Source of the DNA: Chloroflexota bacterium
GTDB lineage: Bacteria; Chloroflexota; UBA11872; VXNJ01
Assembly (NCBI GenBank): GCA_009840625.1
Contig: VXNJ01000001.1
Location: 496,001-560,000, forward strand
Direction: 5' to 3'
Length of the DNA: 64,000 nt
The notes under the pieces are model-generated. The model searched no databases. It was not told the origin of the DNA and saw only the letters and a list, made by a program, of their open reading frames with translations. A program made the translations under genes and the position numbers. The first letter of the stretch is position 1, and each line of letters opens with the position of its first letter. This document shows positions 20,000-34,965 of the stretch, one piece after another.

Positions 20000-21166
20000 T
20001 CAAAAATCGATCCAGGTGCCGTCGGGCAACTGCAATTCGTCAGTGGGAGCCGGTCGATGCCGTCGCTTGCGCTCAAGCGCCCGCGCCCGTTCTAGGTCGA
20101 GGGTGATACCCAATCCGGGAGCATCCGGCGGATACATGTAACCACGCCGGGGTTCGGGAATCCCGTCGAATATCTCGTGGAATTGCTCCGGAAACGGCCA
20201 TATCACCTCCTGGATCAGGAAGTTGTGACAGGCCAGGTCAAGCTGCAGACTGGCCATCGTGTTGACCGGCGACTGGGGGTTGTGCGGGGCCAGGCTGATC
20301 AAGTGCGCATCGGCGTAGTCCGCGATCTTCTTGACTTCGGTGATGCCGTGAGCATGCACTATGTCGGGCTGGATTATGTCCACCCATTCGTTTTCGATCA
20401 GGGGCTGGAACTGCCAGCGTGAGTAAAGCCGCTCGCCGGTGGCCAGCGGCGTCGGGCACCGCTCTCGCAGCATCCTAAAGCTCTCTGCGGCCTCGAACCG
20501 GGTCGGTTCTTCAAGAAAAAGAATGTCGAAGTCTTTGACCCGTTCGGCGAATGCCACCACGTCGACCGGCCGCAGTCTCCCGTGGGTTTCAAGCAGAAGG
20601 TCGAATTCGGGCCCGACGAACTCGCGGGCGGCGGCGACCACGGCGGCACCGCGGCGGACCGCGGGCCGCGGGTCGAAGCGTTCCCGTCTTGGTCCCGCGC
20701 CCGGATCGGAAGGAGTTGCCATGAACTTGACCGCAGTCCAGCCATCGTCAATCAGCGGCCCGAGCGCGTCGGGGACGGATTCCGGGGTCGGCAACTGGGC
20801 ATGGTTGTAAAGGCGCACGCGGTCGCGCAACGGCCCGCCCAGGAGCCGGTAGATCGGAACCCCCAGGGCCTGCCCGCGGATGTCCCACAGGGCCACATCG
20901 ATCGCTCCCATGGCCGAGGCGGTCACCGCGCCTCCGCGACGCCGGTCGCCCAGGTACAGCCGCCACCAGATGTCCTCCGAGGCCAGCGGATCCATCCCGC
21001 GGATTACCTCGCCCATCTCTCCCAGGCAGGACCGCACGCTCTGGCTGCGCCCCATCAAAGTAGCCTCGCCCAGGCCGGTGATGCCGGCATCGGTTCGCAC
21101 CAGCGCCCACACGAATGAGCGCCCCGGGCGCCGATATGTACAGACGTCGACGGCGGTGATCTGCAT
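20000..21166 (-). CDS. Enolase-superfamily (mandelate racemase/muconate lactonizing) sugar-acid dehydratase
   Basis: A 388-residue MR-subgroup enzyme most like D-galactonate dehydratases. Such enzymes remove water from aldonic or aldaric acids using Mg2+. Visible motifs are the first metal-ligand block LLLETHGRL, second ligand LFLEEPTR, third ligand TGERLYSRW, the QPDIVHAHGITE block and a base-bearing APHNPQSP block. The first ligand, normally Asp in D-x-H-G-R, is Glu here. ATG 21166 has a TGGAG ribosome site; an earlier in-frame start at 21205 would add 13 residues. It is divergent from the sulfatase, a pairing that could serve breakdown of sulfated sugars. Confidence 0.85.
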   Translation of the reverse strand: MQITAVDVCTYRRPGRSFVWALVRTDAGITGLGEATLMGRSQSVRSCLGEMGEVIRGMDPLASEDIWWRLYLGDRRRGGAVTASAMGAIDVALWDIRGQALGVPIYRLLGGPLRDRVRLYNHAQLPTPESVPDALGPLIDDGWTAVKFMATPSDPGAGPRRERFDPRPAVRRGAAVVAAAREFVGPEFDLLLETHGRLRPVDVVAFAERVKDFDILFLEEPTRFEAAESFRMLRERCPTPLATGERLYSRWQFQPLIENEWVDIIQPDIVHAHGITEVKKIADYADAHLISLAPHNPQSPVNTMASLQLDLACHNFLIQEVIWPFPEQFHEIFDGIPEPRRGYMYPPDAPGLGITLDLERARALERKRRHRPAPTDELQLPDGTWIDF

Positions 21167-21299
21167 TAGCTTGTGCTCCAGAGGAAACGGCCGCCCGCCC
21201 GGCAAGAATCGACGCCGGCGACCGGCCCAAAATAGCGTGGTCGGGTCGGCGAAGTATTTTCAGCGACCCGCGACCCGCATCCAACCCACGGAACGGCCG

Positions 21300-22748
21300 A
21301 TGGCTAGCGCGCAACGTCCCAACATCCTCTTCCTCACGACCGACCAGCAACGGTTCGACTGCCTGGGCGTTAATTCAGGCGGATACGTGAAGACTCCCAA
21401 TATCGATCGCCTGGCCGCCGAGGGCGTCAATCTGACCGGGGCCTTCGTGAACAACCCGGTCTGCATGCCCTCGCGGGCGACGTTGCTGACCGGTCGCTAC
21501 CCTCGCAACCATGGGGTCACCTCGAACGGGTTCACGCTGCCGGAGGATGAAGTCTCCATCGCCGAGATCCTCTCGCAAGCCGGCTACCGGACCGGCAACC
21601 TCGGCAAACTGCACTTCCTGCCCCATTCCAACCGCGACTACGATCGGGCTCACCCCGCGTACGGATTCGACGTCCACGTCAACGCCGACGAACCGGGCTG
21701 CTATCCGGACGATTACATCCGCTGGATCCGGCGAGTGGCGCCGGGCATGGAGGAAAAAGTCGGCGTGCCGCACCCGATCACCGGCGACCGCAACATCCTG
21801 TACTGGGACTTCGACGCTCCCGAGGAACTCAGTTACAGCGCCTGGGTGGCCGATCAGACGATCGGCTTCATCGACGCGTCGGGCGAAACGCCCTGGTTTG
21901 CCATTGCCGGTTTCTACCTGCCGCACTCCCCGTGCAATCCGCTGCCCAAATACCTCGACCTTTACCCGCGCGATAGCGTGCCGCCACCAGACGTGATCCC
22001 TGGCGAGCTGGACGACAAGCCCACTACCGTTCGTCGGATCGCCGAGGCCGTTCTGCCCGAAGACGAGGAGACAGTAATGCAGTTCAGGCGCTACTACTAC
22101 GCCAGTTGCAGCATGATCGACCACCATTGCGGACGCATCGTCGAGCACCTGCGGCAAACGGGCCAACTCGACAACACTTTAGTAGTCTTCTACTCCGACC
22201 ACGGCGACGCCTGCGGCGACAACTTCACGATGGCCAAGCACGAGGCCCATTACGACTCCTGCCTCCGGGTCCCGATGGTTTGGCGCTGGCCGGACAGGAT
22301 CCCGGCGGGCAGCAGTTTTGAGGGGTTCTTCGAAGGAGTTGACCTGGTCCCGACTCTGCTCGCGGCTCTCGGCTTGCAGGTACCCGACCGCGTCGACGGC
22401 AGCTCCCTGTGGGAGCAGCTGACGGGCTCGGGCGGCGGCGGCAAGGAATCGGTGCTGGTCGAGTACTTCAATCCCGGCAACGACCAGGTCCAAACCGAGA
22501 TCTCGCGTCACACTCGCTACTACCAGGGCGGGTCTTCAGTGTTAACCCTGATCAATTCCGAATACAAGTACTGGATCAACGACGAAGGCGAAGAAATTCT
22601 CTATGACCGGGCCGAGGATCCGGGCGAACACGTGAATCTGGCGTGCTCCCCCGGACACGCCGCCCAACTGGCGCGGATGCGGAAGGCGCTGCTGCAGAAA
22701 CTGGCCACGACCTACGATCGCCGCCACCGCAAGCTGGCGCTTTATTAG
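21300..22748 (+). CDS. Cys-type sulfatase
   Basis: A 482-residue type I sulfatase. The N-terminus carries NILFLTTDQQR with the metal-binding Asp pair, and the signature CMPSRATLLTGRYP contains C55, the residue oxidised to formylglycine. The later block FYSDHGDACGD supplies further metal ligands. The C-terminal part has the usual ILYDRAEDPGE segment. No clear signal peptide, so it may be cytoplasmic and act on imported sulfated sugars. A matching formylglycine-generating enzyme is encoded 27 bases downstream on the opposite strand. Substrate unknown; choline-sulfatase-like and carbohydrate sulfatases share these motifs. Confidence 0.92.
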   Translation: MASAQRPNILFLTTDQQRFDCLGVNSGGYVKTPNIDRLAAEGVNLTGAFVNNPVCMPSRATLLTGRYPRNHGVTSNGFTLPEDEVSIAEILSQAGYRTGNLGKLHFLPHSNRDYDRAHPAYGFDVHVNADEPGCYPDDYIRWIRRVAPGMEEKVGVPHPITGDRNILYWDFDAPEELSYSAWVADQTIGFIDASGETPWFAIAGFYLPHSPCNPLPKYLDLYPRDSVPPPDVIPGELDDKPTTVRRIAEAVLPEDEETVMQFRRYYYASCSMIDHHCGRIVEHLRQTGQLDNTLVVFYSDHGDACGDNFTMAKHEAHYDSCLRVPMVWRWPDRIPAGSSFEGFFEGVDLVPTLLAALGLQVPDRVDGSSLWEQLTGSGGGGKESVLVEYFNPGNDQVQTEISRHTRYYQGGSSVLTLINSEYKYWINDEGEEILYDRAEDPGEHVNLACSPGHAAQLARMRKALLQKLATTYDRRHRKLALY

Positions 22749-22775
22749 GCCGCGAAAATTGCCGCCGGAAGCCCG

Positions 22776-23636
22776 TCAGGGGTCGCGGGCGCACCGGAAT
22801 CCGAGATTGCCGGCGCCGGTGTCGGGGGTGTTTCGGTTGCGCGCCGCCACCCGGTAGCGGTTGCAGTAGGAATCATGGCAAAGGTAAGACCCGCCGCGCA
22901 TCACCCGGGCCGAGCCCTCGGCAGGGCCGCGCGGATTAAGAGGTGAGGCGCTCAGGTGGTGGTTGGGGCTGAACCAGTCCTGACACCACTCCCAGACGTT
23001 GCCGGCTACGCCGTACATCCCGTAGCCGTTGGGTTCGAACGATTTGACCGGACAGGTTCCCAGATACCCGTCGTCGCGGGTGTTCAGGTCCGGGAACTTG
23101 CCTTGCCAGATGTTGGCCATGTGTTTGCCGGCCGGAGTCAGATCGTCACCCCAGGGATAAACGGCCTGGACCAATCCGCCGCGCGCGGCATATTCCCATT
23201 CGGCCTCGGTCGGCAGGCGCTTGCCGGCCCAGCGGCAGTACTCGGCGGCGTCGTTCCAGGACACCTGCACGACCGGATGGTCGGGACGCTTGCGCACGTT
23301 CGATCCGGGGCCTTCGGGATGGCGCCAGCTGGCGCCATTGATCGCCAGCCACCAGGGGACCTCGTTGACCCGTTGCGGATTGCCGCGCAGCAATCTGCCC
23401 GGAACCAACAGTTGGAAGACGAATGACCAACCGAAGCGCTCCGACTCAGTCTTGTATCCGGTCGCGCGAACGAACCGACCGAACTCGCGGTTGGTCACCG
23501 GCGTCAAATCGATGAAAAACGGGTCGATCGCGACTTCTCTAATCGGACCTTCCCCGTCGTCGGGGAATCCGTCGCTGCTCTCGGTGCCCATCAGGAAAGT
23601 TCCGCCGTCCAGCAACACCATGCCCTCGGGCGCCAT
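22776..23636 (-). CDS. Formylglycine-generating enzyme (SUMF1-type sulfatase maturase)
   Basis: A 286-residue FGE-sulfatase domain protein. The block beginning MVLLDGGTFLMG opens the domain, followed by DHPVVQVSWNDAAEYCRWAG, TEAEWEYAARGG and GNVWEWCQDW. Near the C-terminus, GGSYLCHDSYCNRYR keeps both cysteines (C253 and C258) that bind copper and act in true FGEs; many relatives with other functions lack them. The FGE oxidises the Cys of C-x-P-x-R motifs to formylglycine, and such a sulfatase lies next door. ATG 23636 has a GGGAG ribosome site; the frame is open upstream across the aminotransferase end. Confidence 0.92.
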   Translation of the reverse strand: MAPEGMVLLDGGTFLMGTESSDGFPDDGEGPIREVAIDPFFIDLTPVTNREFGRFVRATGYKTESERFGWSFVFQLLVPGRLLRGNPQRVNEVPWWLAINGASWRHPEGPGSNVRKRPDHPVVQVSWNDAAEYCRWAGKRLPTEAEWEYAARGGLVQAVYPWGDDLTPAGKHMANIWQGKFPDLNTRDDGYLGTCPVKSFEPNGYGMYGVAGNVWEWCQDWFSPNHHLSASPLNPRGPAEGSARVMRGGSYLCHDSYCNRYRVAARNRNTPDTGAGNLGFRCARDP

Positions 23637-23730
23637 TACACCGGTCTCCCGGACGGCTGGTCGGGGTTCAACTTCCGGAACACCGGACCGGGGCGGTGGG
23701 CAGCAGTCCGGCGTCAAGCTAGGCCGCCGA

Positions 23731-24906
23731 TCACGCGAGAAACTCGGCGACGCGGTCGAGTCCACGGGCAATGGTCTCCATGTCGGTGGCAAAGCTGAGA
23801 CGCACGGTTGCATCCATTCCAAACGCTTCGCCGGGCACCACCGCTACCCGCCCTTCTTCAAGCAGCCGCTGGGCAAATTCGACCGAACCGGCAACTCCCA
23901 GCCGCGAGTAGTTGGCCGAGACGTCGGGCAGGACGTAAAAAGCGCCCTGCGGTCGCGGGCAGGTAACGCCCGGCATGGCGTTGAGGCGTTCGAAGCAGTA
24001 GCGTCCGCGGCGGGCAAACTCCTCGCGCCGTTCGGCCACTATCGCTTGATCGCCGGCTAGAGCGGCCGCATAGCCGAATTGGGTGAAGTTACAGGCCCCG
24101 GACGTGGTCTGGGTCTGAATCTTGGCCATCGCCCCGATGATCTCTGCCGGACCGGCCGCAAATCCCAATCGCCAGCCGGTCATCGCGTAGGTCTTGCTGG
24201 AGGCATTGAACGTTACCGTGCGCGCGTAGGCGTCGTCCGACAGGCTGGCGAAGTTGGCAAAACTTGCCCCGCCAAAAACCAGCTGGTCATAGATCTCGTC
24301 GGCCAGGACGATCACTTCTGAGCCGGCCAGGACTTCGGCGATCGCCGCCGCTTCCTCCGGTGAATAGACGAATCCGCCCGGGTTGGACGGTGAGTTGAAC
24401 ACGAATGCCCGGGTTCGATCGGACAGCGCCGCGGCGACCTGATCAGGAGTCAATTTGTAGTCGTTTTGCGGACTCCCCTCCACGATCACCGGGACGCCGT
24501 CGCAGAGCGCGACCTGCTCCGGAAACGAGACCCAGTACGGCGCCGGCACGATCACCTCGTCACCCGGGTCCAGGATGGCCGCGAACGCCAGAAACAAGGC
24601 TTCCTTGCCGCCGCAAGTGACGATCAGCTGGTCGGATCGGTAATGCAGCCCGGCATCGCGCGCCAGGGCATCGACTATCGCGGTCTTTAGCGGCACGATC
24701 CCCGAAGCCGGGGCCGCGTATCCGGTCTGGCCACCCTGGAGGGCGTCGATGGCAGCTCGCTTGACGTGGTCCGGGGTGTCGAAATCGGGCTCGCCGGCGC
24801 CGAAGCTGACGACGTCGACGCCTTCGCGGCGCAACTGGGCGGCCCGACCGGTCACCGCCATGGTGGCCGATTCGGCCATGCGAAGAGCACGCTGGGAGAT
24901 TTGCAT
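23731..24906 (-). CDS. Class I aminotransferase, aspartate aminotransferase-like
   Basis: PLP-dependent fold type I enzyme of 391 residues, closest to the subgroup Ib aspartate/prephenate aminotransferases. Visible are YAAPASGIVPLKTAI, the cofactor loop VTCGGKEALFLAF, NSPSNPGG, LADEIYDQL with the Asp that binds the pyridine nitrogen, the Schiff-base Lys in ASSKTYAMTGWRLG, and the C-terminal substrate Arg in VRLSFA. I start at ATG 24906, where homologues start (MQISQRALRM); an earlier in-frame codon at 24954 is possible. Amino-acid specificity cannot be fixed from sequence. Confidence 0.9.
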   Translation of the reverse strand: MQISQRALRMAESATMAVTGRAAQLRREGVDVVSFGAGEPDFDTPDHVKRAAIDALQGGQTGYAAPASGIVPLKTAIVDALARDAGLHYRSDQLIVTCGGKEALFLAFAAILDPGDEVIVPAPYWVSFPEQVALCDGVPVIVEGSPQNDYKLTPDQVAAALSDRTRAFVFNSPSNPGGFVYSPEEAAAIAEVLAGSEVIVLADEIYDQLVFGGASFANFASLSDDAYARTVTFNASSKTYAMTGWRLGFAAGPAEIIGAMAKIQTQTTSGACNFTQFGYAAALAGDQAIVAERREEFARRGRYCFERLNAMPGVTCPRPQGAFYVLPDVSANYSRLGVAGSVEFAQRLLEEGRVAVVPGEAFGMDATVRLSFATDMETIARGLDRVAEFLA

Positions 24907-25091: not shown

Positions 25092-25856
25092 ATGAACAAC
25101 CTCGAATCGAAGGTCGCGGTAGTCTCCGGCGCAGGGCGGGGCATCGGCCGATCGATCGCCATCGCCCTGGCCCGCGCCGGCGCCGACGTCGTGGGGTGCT
25201 CGCGCACGGTGAGCGAGCTCGAATCCCTGGCGAGCGAAATCAAACAGCTGGGGCGGCGCTGCGCGACCGCCCGCGTCGACGTGGCCGATTGGGAAAACGT
25301 CAAGCATTTCGCCGAAACGGTCGTCGCGGAATTCGGGCGCTGCGACATCCTGGTCAACAACGCCGGCGGGACGTTTGCCGAGGGGGAGTTGGCCGACAGC
25401 GACCCGGCACTTTGGACCAAGACCGTCGACATCAACCTGTACGGCACTTACTTCCTGACAAGGGCCCTGCTGGCCGACATTCCCAGCGGCGGCAAGATCA
25501 TAAACATCGCCTCCGGCATGGGCTTGGCGGCGTTGCCCGGCAACAGTTCGTACGCGGCCGCCAAGGCGGCTGTGCACATGCTCACGCAGGTTCTTTCGCA
25601 GGAAGTCTGGGAACGCGGGATCGAAGTGAACGACGTGATTCCAGGGCTGGTGGCGACCACCAACGTGACCTGGGCCAGCGACCGGTCTTCGGTGGATACG
25701 GTGCTGGCCGAATTCGCGGATCGGCCGGTGCCGTTCGCAGCTTCCGAACGCGTCAAGCACCCTGACGAGGTCGGCGAACTGGTCGCCTGGATGGCCGGCC
25801 TGCCGCCCGGGGGCCCAACCGGCCAGTCATTCTCGCTGGCGCGCCGACCACTCTAA
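25092..25856 (+). CDS. SDR family oxidoreductase
   Basis: Classical short-chain dehydrogenase/reductase of 254 residues. Cofactor motif SGAGRGIGRS, NNAGG motif, and the catalytic Tyr-Lys in SYAAAKAAV are all present. ATG 25092 fits the usual start a few residues before the first strand; an earlier start at 25011 would add a non-conserved leader. It is divergent from the aminotransferase gene. Substrate unknown; alcohols of sugars, polyols or 3-oxoacyl groups are typical for the family. Confidence 0.88.
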   Translation: MNNLESKVAVVSGAGRGIGRSIAIALARAGADVVGCSRTVSELESLASEIKQLGRRCATARVDVADWENVKHFAETVVAEFGRCDILVNNAGGTFAEGELADSDPALWTKTVDINLYGTYFLTRALLADIPSGGKIINIASGMGLAALPGNSSYAAAKAAVHMLTQVLSQEVWERGIEVNDVIPGLVATTNVTWASDRSSVDTVLAEFADRPVPFAASERVKHPDEVGELVAWMAGLPPGGPTGQSFSLARRPL

Positions 25857-26010: not shown

Positions 26011-26346
26011 GTGATTGACACCGCCCGCGAGGGTCCAATACTGATCGCCGGACTCTCCGGCCGCATCGACGGGACCAACGCCCGACAAGTACAGACCGAA
26101 TTGGAATCGGCGCTCGGCGACGATGACCGCCGACTGCTGCTGGATTTCGCGGACCTCTCCTACATCTCCAGCGCCGGGCTTCGGGTTGTACTGCTGGTGG
26201 CCCGCCAGCTCGACCAAAAGGGCGGACAGCTGGCAGTCTGCAGTCTTAGCGAGTCGATTTCCGAAATATTCAAGATCTCCGGATTCGACAAGATCATCAA
26301 CGTCCACGCCGATAGGCCCGCCGCTCTCGCCGACCTGCAGGGCTAG
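26011..26346 (+). CDS. STAS domain anti-sigma factor antagonist
   Basis: A 111-residue single STAS domain of the SpoIIAA/RsbV type. The block LLLDFADLSYISSAGLRVVL contains S54 aligned with the phosphorylated Ser of SpoIIAA. In partner switching the unphosphorylated antagonist binds the anti-sigma kinase and frees the sigma factor; phosphorylation turns it off. An RsbW-like kinase and a PP2C phosphatase are encoded in the same operon, giving both enzymes that would act on S54. GTG start. Confidence 0.9.
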   Translation: MIDTAREGPILIAGLSGRIDGTNARQVQTELESALGDDDRRLLLDFADLSYISSAGLRVVLLVARQLDQKGGQLAVCSLSESISEIFKISGFDKIINVHADRPAALADLQG

Positions 26347-26385
26347 GGCCGAGCCCGACTAGAGTCCTCCACAAAGACTTTTCCG

Positions 26386-27597
26386 GTGCCCCCGGACAGA
26401 CCTAGACGCCGGTCTCGGACCCGCTACGAAGGCCCGACCCGGAAGATTCTGGTGGTCGATGACGAGCCTGACCTGGAGCCGCTGATCCTGCAGCGCATGC
26501 GTCGCCAGATCAGGTCCGGTCAATACGAATTTCAATTCGCCGGCAACGGCGTCGAGGCCGTCGCCCTTCTCGAGCAGGACAAGGAGATCGAGCTAGTCCT
26601 CTCCGACATCAACATGCCGAGGATGGACGGGTTGACGCTCCTGCAACAGATTCCGCAGATCACCGACGACATTCGGTCAGTCATCATCTCCGCATACGGT
26701 GACATGGACAACATCCGAACCGCCATGAATCGGGGCGCGTTCGATTTCGTCACCAAACCGGTCGATTTCAAAGACCTGGACATCACCATTGAGCGCGCGC
26801 TCAACAACCTTGCCGAATGGCGCAACGCGCTGGCGGCCAGGGACCAACTTGTCTCGCTGCAGCGCGAATTGGACATTGCGCGGCGCCTGCAGGAATCAAT
26901 CCTGCCGAAGTCGTTTCCGAAGAGCGACGATTTCGAAATCTCCGGATTCATGCAGGCCGCCCGCAACGTGGGCGGCGACTTCTACGATTTCCTAGAACTG
27001 CCGAACGGAAACGTCGGTTTGGTCATCGCCGACGTATCCGACAAGGGCGTGTCGGCGGCGATGTTCATGATGTCGGCGCGCACCACGATCAAGGGGGCCG
27101 CCTTAGACGGATGCGACGCCGCCGAGGTGCTTACGCGGGCCAACGACTTGCTCAGCGCCGACAACCCCAACATGATGTTCGTCACCGCCTTTTACGCCGA
27201 GTACGAACCTGCCAGCGGAACCCTTACCTACGCCAACGGCGGGCATGACCTGCCGGTGTTGGTTGACAGAGACGGGGCGCGCACCATCCCTTCGACCGGC
27301 GGAGTTGCGCTCGGAGTCTTGCCGGGAATGCCGTATTCGGCCGAATCGATAAAGATGCAAGTCGGCGATACGTTTGTGGCCTATACCGACGGGGTCACCG
27401 ACGCAATGAGCCCGCAGGAGGAACAGTTCGGCCTCGGTCGCCTGATGCAGCTGTTCGCCGAAAAACCCCCGTCGCACGCCGGCGCAACGGTAAACGATGT
27501 GGTGGCGGCCGTCAAACGGTTCGCCGCCGAACAGGACCAATTCGACGACATCACGTGCCTTGTTTTGCAGCGACTGGCGCCGGGATCGCGGCTGTGA
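26386..27597 (+). CDS. Response regulator with PP2C (SpoIIE/RsbU-type) phosphatase output
   Basis: A 403-residue two-domain protein. Residues 20-140 form a receiver: acidic pair D25-D26, phospho-acceptor D74 in LVLSDINMPRMDG and the Lys of TKPVDF. A helical linker (about 140-180, RELDIARRLQESILP) joins a SpoIIE-type PP2C phosphatase with metal motifs GGDFYDFLE, ADVSDKGVSAAMF and YTDGVTDA. Phosphorylation of D74 by the histidine kinase of the operon would control dephosphorylation of the STAS protein. GTG start 39 bases after the STAS gene; its stop overlaps the next gene. Confidence 0.93.
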   Translation: MPPDRPRRRSRTRYEGPTRKILVVDDEPDLEPLILQRMRRQIRSGQYEFQFAGNGVEAVALLEQDKEIELVLSDINMPRMDGLTLLQQIPQITDDIRSVIISAYGDMDNIRTAMNRGAFDFVTKPVDFKDLDITIERALNNLAEWRNALAARDQLVSLQRELDIARRLQESILPKSFPKSDDFEISGFMQAARNVGGDFYDFLELPNGNVGLVIADVSDKGVSAAMFMMSARTTIKGAALDGCDAAEVLTRANDLLSADNPNMMFVTAFYAEYEPASGTLTYANGGHDLPVLVDRDGARTIPSTGGVALGVLPGMPYSAESIKMQVGDTFVAYTDGVTDAMSPQEEQFGLGRLMQLFAEKPPSHAGATVNDVVAAVKRFAAEQDQFDDITCLVLQRLAPGSRL

Positions 27598-28007
27598 AGC
27601 GCGAGCTCTCGCTCACCCCGGAACTGGACTCGGTCAGCAAGCTTGCCGATACCGTTGCCGAAGTGTCGGCCGACGACGATTGGACGCCCGATCTCGAATA
27701 CAAGGTTGCGTTGGCGGTCGAGGAAATCGGCATGAACATCGTCTCCTACGCCGGCCTTTCCAATGACCAGGCCATCCAGGTGACGATCGATTCGACGCCG
27801 GAATCGGTAACGGTCGTCTTCTCGGATCCTGGGCCGGCGTTTAATCCGTTTGTCGACGCGCCCGCCCCGGATCTGGAGGCGTCGGTCGCCGACCGCCGCA
27901 TCGGTGGGCTTGGAGTCCACCTGGTGGAAACTCTGATGGACATGGTTTCCTACGACCGCGGAAGCGGCCGCAACAACCTGACCATGGTTGCCAATCGGGC
28001 AAAGTGA
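27594..28007 (+). CDS. RsbW-like serine kinase / anti-sigma factor (HATPase_c_2)
   Basis: A 137-residue stand-alone GHKL ATPase domain. The N-box is VEEIGMNIVSYAG, followed by a DPGPAFNPF G1-like box and the GGLGVHLV G2-like box. There is no His-phosphotransfer domain, which fits an anti-sigma kinase phosphorylating the STAS antagonist. GTG 27594 overlaps the phosphatase stop (GTGA), and its own stop overlaps the next GTG, so the three are translationally coupled. No sigma factor gene is present in the window, so its target is encoded elsewhere or is not a sigma factor. Confidence 0.88.
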   Translation: MKRELSLTPELDSVSKLADTVAEVSADDDWTPDLEYKVALAVEEIGMNIVSYAGLSNDQAIQVTIDSTPESVTVVFSDPGPAFNPFVDAPAPDLEASVADRRIGGLGVHLVETLMDMVSYDRGSGRNNLTMVANRAK

Positions 28008-29281
28008 TTCCGCTGTTGACCCGCCGGCCAGCCCTTGCCGCGTTGGCGGGGCTGGTGGTCTTGGGCGCGGCCATTGCGGCGATGGTGTTTGTGTTGACGC
28101 GCCCCGACGCGCCCGCAAACGTGAACGCGGACGCGACCGGGCCGGTACCGGCCGTGGCCCCGGACCCGGGCCCGGAACCCGGGATTTTCAATGACCGGGT
28201 AGTTTTCGGCCAAACCGCCGCATTCAGCGGACCGGCGCAGGGACTGGGCATCGAAATGCGGCGCGGCATTGAAGCCGCGTTCGCGGAAGCCAATCGATCG
28301 GGAGGAGTCAACGGCCGGAGGCTTGAGCTGGTGTCCCTGGACGATGCCTACGAACCGGAGGCGGCAATCACCAACGCTCAGCAGTTGATCGGTGTGCAGG
28401 AAGTCTTTGCGCTGATCGGATCGGTGGGAACCCCGACTTCCCGTTCTACGGTTCCGGTTGCCGGCGAAGCGGGGGTGCCCTTCATAGCCCCCTTCACCGG
28501 CGCGGCGTTTCTGCGCGATCCGCAACTCGAGCACGTGATCAACCTGCGCGCTTCCTATGCGCAGGAAACAGAGACGATGGTCGGACTGTTCGTAGATCGA
28601 CGCGGCTTCGACCGCATCGGAGTCCTATACCAGGACGATTCCTTCGGCAGGACCGGGTACAACGGCGCCCGGGACGCCCTGGCGAGGCGGGGCCTTGAGC
28701 CGGTCGGGGTCGGGCTTTATCCGCGCAACACCACCGCCATCAAGACGGCGCTGCTGGACCTGTCGGCGGCCGAACCCGAAGCGATCATCCTAATCGGCGC
28801 TTACGAACCGGTCGGTACGTTGATCAGCCTGGCCAAGTCGATCGGATTGGATTCAGAGTTCATCGCGATTTCGTTTGTTGGGTCAAATTCGCTCGCCCAG
28901 CAGCTGGGGCCGGACGGCGAGGGAGTGAAAGTCACCCAGGTTGTGCCCCTGCCCACCGACCGGTCGGTGCCGATAGTGGTCGAGTACTTGGACGCGATGG
29001 CGTCGCACGATGTCACCGGCCTGCCCGGATTCGTCTCGCTCGAGGGCTATCTGGCCGGACGCCTGGCAATCGCGGGGCTGGCCGCCTGCGGCCCAGACCT
29101 GAGCCGGACATGCTTTGTTGACGGGCTCAAATCGCTGGTCGAATTCGAATTGGGAGGGTTCCCCCTCTCCTTCGGGCCCGATGACAACCAGGGTTCCGAC
29201 AGCGTGTTCCTGACCGAAATCGGACCCGAAGGGCGTTTCCGGCCCCTCGCTCCCGACAACCCTCCCGCCGTTCCGGTTTAG
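28004..29281 (+). CDS. Branched-chain-amino-acid-type periplasmic binding protein, membrane-anchored sensor candidate
   Basis: A 425-residue type I periplasmic-binding protein (LivJ-like, Peripla_BP_6). A hydrophobic N-terminal segment (about residues 9-33) lacks a lipobox Cys, so it may be an uncleaved anchor or signal. A Pro/Gly-rich linker leads into FGQTAAFSGPAQ, the typical first strand, and GVNGRRLELVSLDD. It is followed after eight bases by a histidine kinase and not by ABC permeases, so a role as ligand-sensing subunit for that kinase is more likely than transport. The ligand is unknown; amino acids or small amides are usual in the family. Confidence 0.85.
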   Translation: MIPLLTRRPALAALAGLVVLGAAIAAMVFVLTRPDAPANVNADATGPVPAVAPDPGPEPGIFNDRVVFGQTAAFSGPAQGLGIEMRRGIEAAFAEANRSGGVNGRRLELVSLDDAYEPEAAITNAQQLIGVQEVFALIGSVGTPTSRSTVPVAGEAGVPFIAPFTGAAFLRDPQLEHVINLRASYAQETETMVGLFVDRRGFDRIGVLYQDDSFGRTGYNGARDALARRGLEPVGVGLYPRNTTAIKTALLDLSAAEPEAIILIGAYEPVGTLISLAKSIGLDSEFIAISFVGSNSLAQQLGPDGEGVKVTQVVPLPTDRSVPIVVEYLDAMASHDVTGLPGFVSLEGYLAGRLAIAGLAACGPDLSRTCFVDGLKSLVEFELGGFPLSFGPDDNQGSDSVFLTEIGPEGRFRPLAPDNPPAVPV

Positions 29282-29289
29282 AGTCACCG

Positions 29290-31521
29290 ATGGCACTGAC
29301 CGGAAACCGATGGGCGCGGGCGGCGGGTGATGCCATCCGCGCCGACTGGGATTGGCTCTTGGCCAACCTCCCGGCGCTGCCGCGCCGCATCGCGACCCAG
29401 ATGTATCTGGGCATCGGCGGTGCCTTGGTCATGACGCTGCTGGCGGGCACCGTGGCCCTGATTTCTTTCGAAGTCGTTGGCCGATTCCAGACTCAGATCA
29501 CCGAGAACGCGGTGCCGGAGTTGACGGCGGCCTTTGACCTGGCTCGAATCTCCGGAAATCTGGTGGCGGTGGGGCCCCGGCTGGCATCGGCGGATTCCCC
29601 AGAACAATTCGACCTGGCCGCCGAGGAGGCCGCCTCGGTGCGCGCCGAACTGGACGCCGTCCTGGCGGGGTTCGCCGGTCAGGGTGAGGACGTGGCCCAG
29701 ATACGCCAATTGAGCGCCGCCATTTCTCAAGACATAGCCCAGCTTGAAGATGATCAGCGCCAGATTCTGGAGCTGAACGCCCGGGCGGCCCTCATCAGCG
29801 ATCAGATCGCGCTGCTGCGCGATGACTTGGCCGGGCTGCTGGGTCCGGCTATCGACGACCAGCTCTTCTTCCTGGCGACCGGCATCCGCGATGACCCAGC
29901 CTTGTCGGCCGGGCCCGGCACCCAGATCGGGGACTACCTGACCTCTGAGGAGCTGAACGTTTACCGCCGCCTGACTGATCTTCAGGCCGATGCCAATATC
30001 GCGGTGCAGGTGTTGGCGTCGGCGTTCATCCTCGACCAGGCAGCGGCGGTTGAGCCCCTGCGGGAGCGATTCGAAGCGGCCGCCGAACGAATGCAGCTGG
30101 GTCTCGCCGGGCTGGCCGGTCACCCGATCCAGGGATTGCTCGCACCGGCATTCGGCCAGCTGCAGGGACTGGCGCTGACGGAAGCGGGCGGGTTCGACAC
30201 CATGGAGAACAAGCTGCGCATCACCCAGCAGCAGGCCGATACGATGAGTCACAGTCAGGCGAGCGCGGGAATCCTCGGCCTGCACGTGGACAACCTCGTG
30301 CGCGCCGCATCCGGCGATGCCGCCAGCGCCAGCATGGATGCTTCGAATTCAATTCAAGTCGGCCGCCTGTTCCTATTCGCCATTACCGCCCTGGCGGTCG
30401 CCGGCGGATTGCTTATCGCCTGGCTTTACGTTGGCCGCGTCATAACCGCCCGCATAGACCAGCTCGCGGTCTGGATGCGACGGTTGGCCGGGGGCGATCT
30501 GGAGGCCCGCGAAGTGGTGGCCGGGAACGACGAAATCGCCGAACTGGGTGAGACGCTGGAGGTTTTCCGTCGCCACGCCCTCGAAGTACAGCGCCTGAAC
30601 CTGGTCGAGGAACTGGCCCAGCAACTGCAGGAGAACAACAAGGAGCTCGAGGCCGCGGTGGCCGAACTGCGGCGCGCTCAAGGACAGATCGTGGCCCAGG
30701 AGAAACTCGCCGCCCTGGGCGAACTCACCGCCGCAGTCGCCCACGAAATCCGCAATCCGCTCAATTTCATCAAGAACTTTTCCGAGGCCTCGGAAGAGCT
30801 GCTCGAGGAACTCGGAGACGTGGCCGATCCCGAAAGCGGCGAGATTGACGAGGAGGGGCGCGAGATCATCGTCGAAGTCGCAACCGACCTGGAAGACAAC
30901 CTGGAGCGGATCCGCAACCACTGCCAGCGCGCCGAAAACATCGTGACCAACATGCTGCGCATGGGCCGCGGATCGGGAGAGCTGCAGGCCACCGACATAA
31001 ACCACCTGATTTCCCTGCACGCTAAGCTGGCGTTTCAGGGAGCCCGGTCCAAAGACCCCGACCTGCAGGCCGACCTTGCCTACGAGCTAGATCCGGACGT
31101 CGGCCAGGTGATGGTGATCCCGCAGGACATGGGAAGGGTGATCCTGAACCTCGTGTCCAACGCCTGCTACGCGGTCGACGAGCGCTGGCGCGGCACCATC
31201 GCCGGGCCCGCCCCTAGCAATGGCGGCGAAAGCGGTCCACGAATCCGGCTCATGTCGGCCAAAGATCCCGAAAACGTCGAGATCAGGGTTCGCGACAACG
31301 GTTCCGGCATCCCGGCCGACGTCGTGGACAAGATCTTCAATCCGTTTTTTACGACCAAGCCGACCGATCAGGGAACGGGTCTGGGGCTTTCAATCTCCAA
31401 CGACATCGTCGTCAGGCGCGGCGGGACGATGAGCGTGGAATCCGAACCGGGCCAGTTCACCGAGTTCACTATCCGGTTCCCGGTCGAACCACCGCTGGCC
31501 GGTGCCGTCGAAGCTAGCTAA
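29290..31521 (+). CDS. TorS-like sensor histidine kinase
   Basis: A 743-residue membrane kinase. Transmembrane segments lie at about residues 38-62 and 357-380 and enclose a long, mostly helical extracytoplasmic domain resembling TorS-type sensors, which bind a periplasmic binding protein. A HAMP domain (about 381-435) and a coiled coil precede HisKA with H485 in AAVAHEIRNPLNF. The ATPase domain has N-box NLVSNACYAV, DNGSGIP and a GTGLGLSI box. No receiver or Hpt domain is fused. Its probable partner is the receiver-phosphatase encoded upstream in the same operon. The stop overlaps the stop of the convergent next gene. Confidence 0.92.
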   Translation: MALTGNRWARAAGDAIRADWDWLLANLPALPRRIATQMYLGIGGALVMTLLAGTVALISFEVVGRFQTQITENAVPELTAAFDLARISGNLVAVGPRLASADSPEQFDLAAEEAASVRAELDAVLAGFAGQGEDVAQIRQLSAAISQDIAQLEDDQRQILELNARAALISDQIALLRDDLAGLLGPAIDDQLFFLATGIRDDPALSAGPGTQIGDYLTSEELNVYRRLTDLQADANIAVQVLASAFILDQAAAVEPLRERFEAAAERMQLGLAGLAGHPIQGLLAPAFGQLQGLALTEAGGFDTMENKLRITQQQADTMSHSQASAGILGLHVDNLVRAASGDAASASMDASNSIQVGRLFLFAITALAVAGGLLIAWLYVGRVITARIDQLAVWMRRLAGGDLEAREVVAGNDEIAELGETLEVFRRHALEVQRLNLVEELAQQLQENNKELEAAVAELRRAQGQIVAQEKLAALGELTAAVAHEIRNPLNFIKNFSEASEELLEELGDVADPESGEIDEEGREIIVEVATDLEDNLERIRNHCQRAENIVTNMLRMGRGSGELQATDINHLISLHAKLAFQGARSKDPDLQADLAYELDPDVGQVMVIPQDMGRVILNLVSNACYAVDERWRGTIAGPAPSNGGESGPRIRLMSAKDPENVEIRVRDNGSGIPADVVDKIFNPFFTTKPTDQGTGLGLSISNDIVVRRGGTMSVESEPGQFTEFTIRFPVEPPLAGAVEAS

Positions 31522-32480
31522 CCGGGACGATACACACGACTTGCTTCGGGATTGTCGAAATTCCGAGGAACCTGGGCAACTTCGGTCCAAAACCGATCAG
31601 GAATCGGGAATTCTGCCCAGGCCACAGTTTGCCCGATGCGGTCCGGATGGGAGCACCCGCAGATCGTGGCGGCCACGCGCGCGTTGCGCAGCGAGTACTG
31701 TAACGCGGCGGCCCCCAGTGGCACCTGGAATTCGTGGCAGATCCGCTCGATCCGGCGTACCGGCGCCAGTTGTCGCGACGTAGCCGGCATATACGTAAGC
31801 CTCGGAAACGCATCGGTCCCCTTGGCGAGGATGCCGCCCATATAAGGCGCGGCGTTAAGAACGACCATCCCGCGTTCGATTGCCTGATCGATCAAGGATT
31901 CGGCATTGCCGTTGAGGATCGAGCATCGGTTATGCGTGATCAAGAAGTCAAAGTCCCAAGTACCGACCAGCGGCGCCATTACCATCACGTCACCGGCGGC
32001 CAGCCCTACGTAGTCGCAGAGACCTTCTTCGCGGATCTTGAATAGCTCATCCAGCGCACCTCCCGATCGGGTAACCTCCCCGACGTCGGCGGCATATTCA
32101 GGGTCGTGCAGGTGCAGGATTTCCACCTTGTCGACGCCAAGTACGGCAAGGCTTTCCTCAATCGACCGCCGCGCCTGGCCGGCGTCAAAACGGCCGGTTT
32201 CCATGTCGCGATCGAGTTTGGTGGATATGACCAGATCGGCCGGTTTGCCGCCGCGCTCGCGGATGACATCGCCGACGCGTTGCTCGGACCGTCCGAATCC
32301 GTAGTTTCGCGACGTATCGAGGAAGTTGATCGGCCCGTCGAATATGGCCCGCACCGTGGACCGGGCTCGCTCCGCGTCGACTTCATACGTGTACGAGTCG
32401 GGCATATTGCCCAGCACGCCGGTGCCGATGCACACTGGGGTGACTGAGAGTTCGGTGGTTCCTAGACGGGTCTTTCGCAC
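31518..32480 (-). CDS. Aldo/keto reductase (D-threo-aldose / L-fucose dehydrogenase-like), copy 1
   Basis: A 320-residue TIM-barrel NAD(P)-dependent oxidoreductase. The catalytic tetrad is visible: Asp and Tyr in FLDTSRNYG, Lys in ISTKLDRD and His in ILHLHDPEY. The sequence style matches the AKR group of L-fucose, D-arabinose and pyridoxal dehydrogenases. GTG 32480 has a GGAG ribosome site eight bases upstream, and this start gives exactly the same length as its neighbour copy, which supports it. It is a tandem paralogue of the next gene, with highly similar sequence along its whole length. Confidence 0.88.
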   Translation of the reverse strand: MRKTRLGTTELSVTPVCIGTGVLGNMPDSYTYEVDAERARSTVRAIFDGPINFLDTSRNYGFGRSEQRVGDVIRERGGKPADLVISTKLDRDMETGRFDAGQARRSIEESLAVLGVDKVEILHLHDPEYAADVGEVTRSGGALDELFKIREEGLCDYVGLAAGDVMVMAPLVGTWDFDFLITHNRCSILNGNAESLIDQAIERGMVVLNAAPYMGGILAKGTDAFPRLTYMPATSRQLAPVRRIERICHEFQVPLGAAALQYSLRNARVAATICGCSHPDRIGQTVAWAEFPIPDRFWTEVAQVPRNFDNPEASRVYRPG

Positions 32481-32615
32481 AAATCCGCTCCAGGTAAGAA
32501 GCACATCCCAGTCACACGATCCCGAACCGGTGCGGACTCAAATTGAATTGACGCAGTTGGAGCCGGGTCGCTGGGTACCGGATTACGATCATTCGGCGAT
32601 CGCCGATTTGAAGGA

Positions 32616-33578
32616 TCAACCCGGCTTGTATTCGCGGTCGGCTTCAGGGTCGCCGAACCCGCGTGGTATCTGCGCGATCGCGTTCCAGAATCCTTCCGGA
32701 ACCGGGTGCTCAAACCAGGCAATAGTCTGCTCGATCCGTTCCGGGCGCGAGCAGCCGCAGATGGTCGCGCTCACCCGTGGATCGCGCTGCGAATACTGCA
32801 GCGCGGCAGCGCCCAGCGGCACCTGGTATTCCCGGCAGATCTGCTCGAGTTCGCGCACCGGATCGAGCTGTTTCCGGGACGCCGGCATGTAGGTCATGCG
32901 CGGGTACGCCTCACTGCCCTTGGCCAGGACGCCACCCATGTAGGGAGCGGCGTTTAGGACGACAATCCCGCGCTCGATCGCCAGGTCGAACAGCGGCTCG
33001 GCGTTGCCGTTGATGATTGAGAACCGGTTGTGCGAGATCAAGAAGTCAAAGTCCCACGTCTCAACCAGCGGCGTCATTACGGTCACGTCACCGGCGGCCA
33101 GGCCGACGTAGTCGCACAGGCCTTCGCTGCGCATCTTGAATAACTCGTCCAGAGCGCCCCCCGACCGGGTCACTTCGTCAATGTCGGCGGCGTATTCGGG
33201 ATCGTGCAGGTGCAGGATCTCCACTCGATCGACGCCAAGGGCCGACAGGCTCTCTTCCAGGGAACGGCGCGCCTGGGCGGCGTCGAACCGCCCGCTGTCC
33301 ATGTCGCGATCGAGCTTGGTGGAAATGACCAGATCGGCGGGTTTGCCGCCCCGCTCGCGAATAACGTCACCGATCCGCGCCTCGGACTGTCCCATGCCGT
33401 AATTTCGCGAGACGTCCAGGAAATTTAGCGGACCGTCGAAGATTGCCCGCACGGTTGACCAGGCTCGTTCCTCGCCGACCGCGTAGGTGTAAGTGTCCGG
33501 CATATTGCCAAGCGCGCTGGTTCCGATGCAGATTGGCGTCACCAGCAAGTCGGTGGCACCCAGACGGACTTTTTCCAT
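32616..33578 (-). CDS. Aldo/keto reductase (D-threo-aldose / L-fucose dehydrogenase-like), copy 2
   Basis: A 320-residue paralogue of the gene at 31518, in the same orientation and separated from it by 135 bases. The tetrad is intact: FLDVSRNYG, ISTKLDRD, ILHLHDPEY. ATG 33578 is preceded by an AAAGGGA ribosome site. Differences from copy 1 are scattered, so both are probably functional and may have shifted in substrate. It is divergent from a Gfo/Idh gene across 139 bases; together they suggest sugar oxidation. Confidence 0.88.
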   Translation of the reverse strand: MEKVRLGATDLLVTPICIGTSALGNMPDTYTYAVGEERAWSTVRAIFDGPLNFLDVSRNYGMGQSEARIGDVIRERGGKPADLVISTKLDRDMDSGRFDAAQARRSLEESLSALGVDRVEILHLHDPEYAADIDEVTRSGGALDELFKMRSEGLCDYVGLAAGDVTVMTPLVETWDFDFLISHNRFSIINGNAEPLFDLAIERGIVVLNAAPYMGGVLAKGSEAYPRMTYMPASRKQLDPVRELEQICREYQVPLGAAALQYSQRDPRVSATICGCSRPERIEQTIAWFEHPVPEGFWNAIAQIPRGFGDPEADREYKPG

Positions 33579-33717
33579 CAACAAATCCCTTTGGCGTTCG
33601 TTCGTGTACTGGCCCCGGCCATTATTGCTATTGGGGCCCGCATCCACAGATGAGCGCCGAGCGTAATTTGGCGGCGGACCCATACCAGTTCGGGTCAGCG
33701 CCGGAGGGTGGCAGAAC

Positions 33718-34965
33718 ATGCGGATCGGGATCATCGGTTGCGGGCGAGTCCTGCCTGCCCATCTGGCTGGGATATCCCAGGTGATCGAAGCCGGCGTCTG
33801 TGAGGCCACGATCACGGCTCTGTGTTCCGGTCACATCAAAAACGCGCTGATGTTTCGTTCTCCCGAAGACGGGATTGAGCCCCGAAAACCGCCGGTCAGC
33901 GATCCCGCGAATCCGATGTCGACGCCGCACATCTACGTTTCCGAACTGCAATCGGAAAGACCGGAGGTGTTCGACGACTATCGGGCAATGCTCGATGCCG
34001 ACCTGGTCGACGCGGTACTGATATTGACCCAGGTATCGCAGCACCATGGGATGGCCCGGGACTGCTTCAGCGCCGGGGTGCACGCGTTGGTCGAAAAACC
34101 GATGGCGATAACCACCCACGCCGCCCAGACGATGATCGACTCGGCTGCCGCCCACGATTGCGTCCTGGCGGTGGCGGAAATGGTTCGCCACATCGAACTG
34201 CACCGCGCCCAGCACTGGGTCGTGGAAAGCGGCCGTATCGGATCCATCCAGTTCGTGGTCCACCGCGAGATGGGTGTGCCCGGTAGACCGCCCCACTTCG
34301 GGTCCGGGAACCTATGGCGGCACCAGCTCAACCGGGTCGGATCGAATACCGCCCTCGACCTGGGGGTCCATCGCCTGCACATGATCGAATACGTTGCCGG
34401 CCGGATTGAAGCGGTAAGCGGGATGGCCGGCACTCTCGAGGAGATCAAAACCGCCCCCGACGCCCACGCCGACTACGCCGAGGTCCGGGACGAATCGGAT
34501 GACTTTTGCATTTCGCAGTTGCGGCTGGCCGGTGGCGGTTTCGGCCAGGTCCTGATCGCCCGCGGGCTGCACGGCCGACCGCTCGATCAGCCGCACGTTA
34601 CCGCCTATTACGGCAGTTCGGGATCGATCGTCGGTCGCAACATCGTCGACGATCGCGGCAATTCGGCCGACGTTGTCGACCTGCTCTGGCGGGACGCCGA
34701 ACGGGCCGTCCTTGGTGGGTGGTTTCCGGAGGGAATCAAGCACGAATTCGGTCTTCAGTTCGCCGATTTCCTGGCCGCTATTAACAGCGGCGGAAGCGTC
34801 GCACCCGAATGCGACGGCCGGCAGGGCCTGCGCGATCTGGCGCTCGCCTACGCCCAGCTCGAATCCAGCTCGCTCAAGCGCGAGATTACGCCCGAAGAGG
34901 TGGTCGATCGCCGCGCCTACGCCTGGCAGGGGCCGATCGATGCATCACTTGGCCTGGACGGATAA
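33718..34965 (+). CDS. Gfo/Idh/MocA family NAD(P)-dependent oxidoreductase
   Basis: A 415-residue member beginning IGIIGCGRVLPAHLAG, with an insertion of about 40 residues between the first strand-helix unit and the rest of the Rossmann fold (SPEDGIEPRKPPVS region), then ALVEKPMAIT with the EKP motif and the dehydrogenase domain carrying DLGVHRLHMIEY. The longer-than-usual N-terminal half is the odd feature. Substrate unknown. Divergent from the tandem aldo/keto reductases and convergent with an amidase. Confidence 0.85.
   Translation: MRIGIIGCGRVLPAHLAGISQVIEAGVCEATITALCSGHIKNALMFRSPEDGIEPRKPPVSDPANPMSTPHIYVSELQSERPEVFDDYRAMLDADLVDAVLILTQVSQHHGMARDCFSAGVHALVEKPMAITTHAAQTMIDSAAAHDCVLAVAEMVRHIELHRAQHWVVESGRIGSIQFVVHREMGVPGRPPHFGSGNLWRHQLNRVGSNTALDLGVHRLHMIEYVAGRIEAVSGMAGTLEEIKTAPDAHADYAEVRDESDDFCISQLRLAGGGFGQVLIARGLHGRPLDQPHVTAYYGSSGSIVGRNIVDDRGNSADVVDLLWRDAERAVLGGWFPEGIKHEFGLQFADFLAAINSGGSVAPECDGRQGLRDLALAYAQLESSSLKREITPEEVVDRRAYAWQGPIDASLGLDG

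Follow-up and report, generated by a model that had tools for sequence, protein, structure and literature searches.

Signalling chains that run from a kinase through a receiver-linked PP2C phosphatase and a STAS protein to RsbW are already known with biochemistry, from Bacillus cereus (RsbK/RsbY; PMC4574943) and from Mycobacterium smegmatis (RsfSR; PMC10950880). In RsbY, phosphorylation of the receiver is modelled to raise phosphatase activity (PMC4574943), and in RsfR phosphorylation of D74 has been shown to lower it (PMC10950880). The subject of this study is a cassette of five same-strand genes at positions 26011-31521 of a 64,000-nucleotide stretch of DNA (the window) from a Chloroflexota bacterium (contig VXNJ01000001.1, positions 496,001 to 560,000). 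The genes encode, in this order, a STAS protein, a receiver joined to a SpoIIE phosphatase, an RsbW-like protein, a LivJ-type binding protein and a histidine kinase. We consider it probable that they constitute one signalling line that connects the cell exterior with an internal phospho-switch, that the target is encoded elsewhere and is not of the SigB/F/G type, and that the cassette has moved between phyla.

The kinase/receiver-phosphatase/STAS core is of a known kind. The B. cereus pathway RsbK-RsbY-RsbV-RsbW-SigB shares with the cassette a sensor kinase, a receiver-PP2C phosphatase, a STAS antagonist and an RsbW kinase in one pathway, but RsbK is a hybrid kinase that is regulated by methylation and works without a binding protein (PMC4574943), and the output, SigB, has no counterpart over the cut-off in the window genome. 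RsfS and RsfR of M. smegmatis are likewise an adjacent kinase and receiver-PP2C phosphatase, the latter acting on the STAS antagonist RsfB, whereas RsfS has a CHASE3 sensor, no binding protein and SigF as its output (PMC10950880). RbaV, RbaW and RbaY of Rhodobacter capsulatus supply a STAS protein, an RsbW-like kinase and a receiver-PP2C phosphatase, again with no sigma client identified; their operon differs in having neither a binding protein nor a kinase, and the phosphatase gene lies elsewhere (PMC3999984). On the input side, TorT-TorS (PDB 3o1h, 3o1i, 3o1j) has in common with the cassette a binding protein and a TorS-type helical sensor on a kinase. The chemoreceptor pairs of Ruegeria TM1040, Phaeobacter, Thioclava and Terrarubrum use the same binding-protein family (48-52% identity, with the motifs GTPT, FTGA and SFVG); its partner there is a membrane signal transducer as in the cassette, but it is a chemoreceptor and has no STAS switch. 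A literature search found no paper on the gene combination described here. New here are a TorS-type input through a binding protein, the constant make-up of the cassette, its distribution among sponge symbionts and the lack of a SigB/F/G-type sigma client.

Layout, conservation and spread of the cassette

Open reading frames and Pfam matches bear out the five adjacent genes that an earlier note on this DNA had named from sequence; all five members were right, although they had been listed in signalling order and not in gene order. The first gene (26011-26346, + strand) begins with GTG and encodes an antagonist-type STAS protein of 111 amino acids with an SSAG motif at S53/S54 (STAS 1.3e-18; TIGR00377 above cut-off). 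It is followed by the receiver fused to a SpoIIE-type (PP2C) phosphatase, 403 amino acids in length (26386-27597, +; Response_reg 7.5e-24, SpoIIE 6.3e-53), and by the RsbW-like serine kinase or anti-sigma-type protein, 137 amino acids when read from a GTG that overlaps the upstream stop (27594-28007, +; HATPase_c_2 1.9e-24). The LivJ-type binding protein (28004-29281, +; 425 amino acids; Peripla_BP_6 1.5e-55) has an N-terminal membrane anchor and the motifs GTPTS, PFTGA and SFVG. The sensor histidine kinase (29290-31521, +; 743 amino acids; Pfam) comprises a transmembrane segment, a TorS-like helical sensor, a second transmembrane segment, HAMP, HisKA with H485, and HATPase_c. The same note had called the operon tightly overlapping, and this is true of the phosphatase/RsbW and RsbW/binding-protein junctions, which are 4-base GTGA overlaps, but the other two are gaps of 39 bases (STAS/phosphatase) and 8 bases (binding protein/kinase). 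Transcription as a single operon is suggested by gene spacing, since a promoter and terminator scan of the locus gave hits at chance level only.

GTDB genomes were scanned with the window binding protein, which gave 209 relatives; the best 80 were kept and make up, with the window, a set of 81 loci. Phylum labels of the 80 are taken from record titles, and most of these loci are metagenome bins. The joined operon had been thought unusual; it proves to be a widespread cassette and not a one-off, with its 80 related loci falling by title into nine phyla (Chloroflexota, Actinomycetota, Gemmatimonadota, Latescibacterota, Rhodothermota, Pseudomonadota, Acidobacteriota, Spirochaetota and Deinococcota). 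Identity of the binding protein to that of the window is 55-66% across all 80 loci. The kinase gene directly follows the binding-protein gene in 81 of 81 loci, the receiver-phosphatase stands beside the kinase in 80, and the search for a conserved five-gene order that had been proposed recovered the full order, alone or with extra copies, in 74 (window included; six phyla by title). Such recurrence is far beyond chance. Median gaps at the last three junctions of the 81 loci are -1, -4 and -4, and the genes resemble one another in their distances between loci (correlations of 0.69-0.87). In the spirochaete and acidobacterial loci a member was not detected, and the Truepera locus has its STAS gene nearby on the opposite strand.

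The residues on which the proposed chain would depend are equally constant, where invariance is judged wherever the alignment of loci has letters. Kinase H485, receiver D25, D26, D74 and K124, and phosphatase D198, D216, D335, D387 and D388 are invariant in the homologous loci, as are S53 and S54 of the STAS protein (74 loci) and E44 and N48 of the N-box, D78 and G80 of the DxG motif and G104, G105 and G107 of the GGLG motif in the RsbW-like protein (78 loci). The numbering of H485, D74 and S54 given before was correct. We take S54, the second serine of the pair, to be the phospho-serine by alignment with SpoIIAA and RsbV. The invariance of the active-site residues indicates that the chain is intact in essentially every carrier.

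The distribution of the cassette does not follow the phyla. The kinase (E <= 1e-90) is present in 28 of 400 Chloroflexota genomes, all of the window's class, and the GTDB scan placed it also in Caldilineae. The tree of the five joined genes interleaves phyla, with well-supported branches that force at least six changes for Chloroflexota and at least four for Actinomycetota; approximately unbiased (AU) tests reject a single clade for Chloroflexota (p 8e-6) and Gemmatimonadota (p 3e-66) and, weakly, for Actinomycetota (p 0.028). The position of the window itself in the trees is unsure, as it sits on a long branch. These tests, made for three groups, speak against one origin per phylum, so that the five genes seem to travel together. 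The pattern fits transfer of the whole set, and paralogy, old losses and mis-titled bins can add to the number of changes.

In the flanks, where open reading frame calls are noisy in GC-rich DNA, no further gene family occurs in more than 14 of the 81 loci and no conserved target gene was found; the lack of another recurrent family points to the five genes as the unit. The neighbours of the cassette in the window are a short-chain dehydrogenase gene upstream, which ends at 25856, and downstream a convergent aldo/keto reductase gene whose end shares 4 bases with that of the kinase gene. The latter is the first of two adjacent aldo/keto reductase paralogues (31518-33815, - strand), and its overlap with the kinase gene is tail to tail. 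Downstream of the kinase in L041, L042 and L057 there is a gene for a putative circularly permuted ATP-grasp protein; about 12 loci, from several phyla, have genes related to it, and in some loci an Alpha-E-like gene accompanies it; these genes and the cassette are possibly a longer block that moved together. In L050, L057, L061 and L104 the kinase gene is followed by a gene for another, diverged binding protein, perhaps a second input.

The binding protein and the sensor of the kinase

By direct reading, the N-terminus of the binding protein is a membrane anchor followed by a proline/alanine-rich linker. Its AlphaFold2 model (predicted local distance difference test score, pLDDT, 88) has a LivJ-like fold, with 4kv7 as the closest solved structure. 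The residues aligned to the LivJ pocket positions S79, T102 and E226 are T, G and S; they are invariant in the family and give no indication of the ligand class. The GTPT, FTGA and SFVG motifs do not vary among the cassette loci and are largely retained in the relatives linked to chemoreceptors, a sign that the ligand may be related.

The kinase had been described as TorS-like, and both sequence and fold agree. Among all solved structures the TorS sensor is the best match by sequence profile (3o1h, residues 46-311, E 7.6e-6), and the four best fold matches of the AlphaFold model (mean pLDDT 84) are the TorS sensor from TorS-TorT complexes (Foldseek; template modelling (TM) score 0.80-0.81 on the target; 3o1i E 1.4e-6, TM 0.81). 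The kinase is not TorS itself: its match to TIGR02956 (TorS), over the stretch 47-492, reaches 153 bits against a cut-off of 676.5, and Pfam finds in it neither a receiver nor Hpt. TorT belongs to another type of binding protein, and TorS is a hybrid kinase that feeds the DNA-binding regulator TorR.

Relatives of the binding protein occur on plasmids of cultured bacteria. Their neighbour is a chemoreceptor in Ruegeria TM1040, Phaeobacter, Terrarubrum, Thioclava and Deinococcus and is a hybrid kinase in Burkholderia; the Eleftheria, Comamonas and Piscinibacter plasmids showed neither a direct transducer neighbour nor a Liv permease, and two further inspected plasmid records carried no annotation. 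The sensor-to-HAMP region of the Terrarubrum chemoreceptor aligns with that of the window kinase (27% identity, E 6e-25), and this chemoreceptor, too, has a match to the TorS model. Together with the plasmid neighbourhoods, this argues for one binding-protein family plugged into the TorS-like sensors of different transducers. The binding proteins of the cassette form a clade separate from the plasmid relatives (support 99), no kinase relatives were found on plasmids at E <= 1e-80, and a search of the window genome found no chemoreceptor.

Two further arrangements were observed. On a Burkholderia stagnalis plasmid (L127:6124-10011) the binding-protein relative lies in front of a hybrid kinase that carries receivers and Hpt, together with an EAL-domain gene; this is another output for the same sensor family. 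In genome G050 (contig C121, 85666-86709) a distant relative (28%) lies within an open frame of 821 residues, perhaps fused to a signalling domain.

The switch proteins, their target and alternative explanations

The cassette holds the genome's only SpoIIE domain and its only small RsbW-like protein; two other HATPase_c_2 matches sit in larger open reading frames, and the one checked is a GAF histidine kinase. In ten loci there is a further receiver, which shares 73-79% identity with the one on the phosphatase; eight of the ten have it joined to a STAS domain whose SSAG motif is intact, so that this receiver type is tied to STAS control a second time. The receiver-STAS fusion of L049 (2403-3314), like those of seven other Chloroflexota loci, lies upstream of the cassette and has both phospho-sites intact. 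The window genome also encodes a second stand-alone STAS protein, 40% identical (G000 contig C10, 108535-108843; L135:1486-1821, - strand), which could be a further substrate for the genome's one RsbW-like kinase. Its gene sits between an enolase-superfamily-like gene and a sulfatase-like gene. A cluster of enolase-superfamily-like, sulfatase-like and putative formylglycine-generating enzyme genes in the window (20000-23822) resembles this neighbourhood.

Four sigma factors with region 2 are present in the window genome, which is 96.6% complete: RpoD, a second sigma-70-type factor of group 2 (L114) with regions 1.2-4, and two extracytoplasmic function (ECF) factors, each of whose genes is followed by a candidate anti-sigma gene. 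The five-gene locus contains no sigma factor, as the earlier note had said. In the genome no SigB/F/G-type factor exceeds the curated cut-off, the best match to TIGR02980 being the RpoD gene at 144 bits versus 234; such a factor is over the cut-off in two of 61 relatives searched (G044 and G056), neither of which carries the cassette. The target is therefore probably not a canonical SigB/F/G-type factor, and release of a sigma factor by the RsbW-like protein, the ending foreseen for the chain, is doubtful.

The sequences show the order of the genes and its conservation, the intact active sites, the TorS-like fold, the absence of a neighbouring transporter and the phylogenetic mixing; each interaction and phosphotransfer step, ligand binding, the direction of control and the target are inferred. 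A small molecule would bind the membrane-tethered LivJ-type protein, and this protein may dock on the TorS-like sensor of the kinase in the way that TorT docks on TorS. The kinase would control phosphorylation of receiver D74, and the state of the receiver would determine how active the fused SpoIIE phosphatase is towards the STAS protein phosphorylated at S54, with the RsbW-like protein as the putative opposing serine kinase. The STAS/RsbW pair would then act on a target encoded elsewhere, other than a SigB/F/G-type sigma factor. Some points weigh against such a chain. Docking and ligand binding are deduced from fold and neighbourhood, and a distant Liv permease might use the cassette binding protein in trans. 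In seven of the 81 loci (for example L045, L064 and L041) a member was not detected beside the others; some of these incomplete loci are contig ends, and in others the member may have been lost or moved. The correlation of distances among the five genes also comes in part from the shared ancestry of the genomes.

At its last step the proposed chain has a variant, to which we would give about an even chance, in which the STAS protein is the output: the RsbW-like protein would be only its serine kinase, and STAS, either un- or phosphorylated, would bind a non-sigma target in the manner of HsbA, BtrV, SypA or RbaV. This agrees with the lack of SigB/F/G-type factors in the window genome and, over the cut-off, in the cassette-bearing relatives searched, with the likely anti-sigma gene adjoining each ECF factor, and with the extra STAS copies present in some loci, the receiver-STAS fusions and the second stand-alone STAS protein. 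Precedents exist in systems with a STAS output or without a known sigma client (reviewed in PMC8256260; reported in PMC3999984). However, nearby genes encode no target for free STAS, RsbW-type proteins can bind other clients, and the group-2 factor is a conceivable target. That the RsbW-like protein is an anti-sigma for the group-2 or an ECF factor, making the cassette an ordinary partner switch with an unusual client, seems unlikely to us, even though the genome's four sigma factors include, besides RpoD, another of the sigma-70 type with regions 1.2-4. RsbW-type proteins are known to bind group-3 (SigB/F-like) factors, both ECF genes adjoin a candidate anti-sigma gene, and no sigma gene occurs in the conserved flanks.

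The single line of signalling would itself dissolve if the binding protein were an ordinary amino-acid transport protein, lying by chance between unrelated regulators. Its LivJ-like fold and the annotation of relatives as ABC substrate-binding proteins would suit this, but its position between the RsbW and kinase genes is fixed across nine phyla, and no permease or ATPase genes lie beside it. The genome's two Liv-type permease loci are about 366 kb from the cassette or on another contig, and each has a different adjoining binding-protein gene of its own. The inspected relatives, moreover, pair with chemoreceptors or a hybrid kinase, and none was found with a Liv-type ABC permease, in keeping with the sensing role that had been predicted from the missing permease partner. 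A kinase with its own regulator apart from the set, the other arrangement named beforehand as refuting the chain, was likewise sought without success. A transport role is rejected on gene neighbourhood as extremely improbable, and a dedicated sensing role is well supported. Presence in many phyla could instead reflect mis-binned contigs or mis-titled metagenome-assembled genomes, given that most loci are metagenome bins with phyla taken from titles. However, the cassette is present on chromosome-scale assemblies from three phyla, titled Dehalococcoidia (OY282385, OY282565, OY282441 and OY282458), Acidimicrobiales (OX638350) and Rhodothermales (OX638293), and mis-binning is therefore unlikely to account for everything; the loci, moreover, fall into deep and diverse clades and are not near-identical copies. 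Transfer is preferred, and artefact is very unlikely as the explanation.

Habitat and possible meaning of the cassette

Habitat was counted over the 80 loci, that is, the best 80 of the 209 relatives, and among these the cassette is found mostly in sponge symbionts; free-living carriers may exist among the lower-scoring relatives. Four loci have accession numbers of bins from the sponge Aplysina aerophoba (PMC5649159), and 12 carry the jk18x names of Ircinia bins (PMC9531527). Judging from names, 31 others have prefixes that correspond to sponge species of PMC8163846, four (p16x) would belong to the Ircinia study and 11 (SB06xx) to I. ramosa; two appear to be Porites lutea coral bins, and the source of about 15 is unchecked. 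Within the window's own family and order, several of its relatives are the same genomes as these sponge bins, with zero-length branches in the tree.

It is possible, and we offer it tentatively, that the cassette is a sensory unit which has spread horizontally among sponge and coral symbionts, in which a binding-protein family that serves chemoreceptors in other bacteria has been wired to a sigma-less STAS switch and through which unrelated symbionts detect one and the same molecule, probably derived from the host or the holobiont. Little is known of how uncultured sponge symbionts from different phyla perceive life inside a host. If the proposal is true, a partner switch operates in a genome without a SigB-type client, which raises the question of what RsbW/STAS pairs then control. 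A shared five-gene sensor with a near-invariant binding motif would also imply one common signal across phyla, which could be found by means of the purified binding protein, and the close, chemoreceptor-wired relatives of this protein in the cultivable marine Phaeobacter and Ruegeria make the question of the ligand testable.

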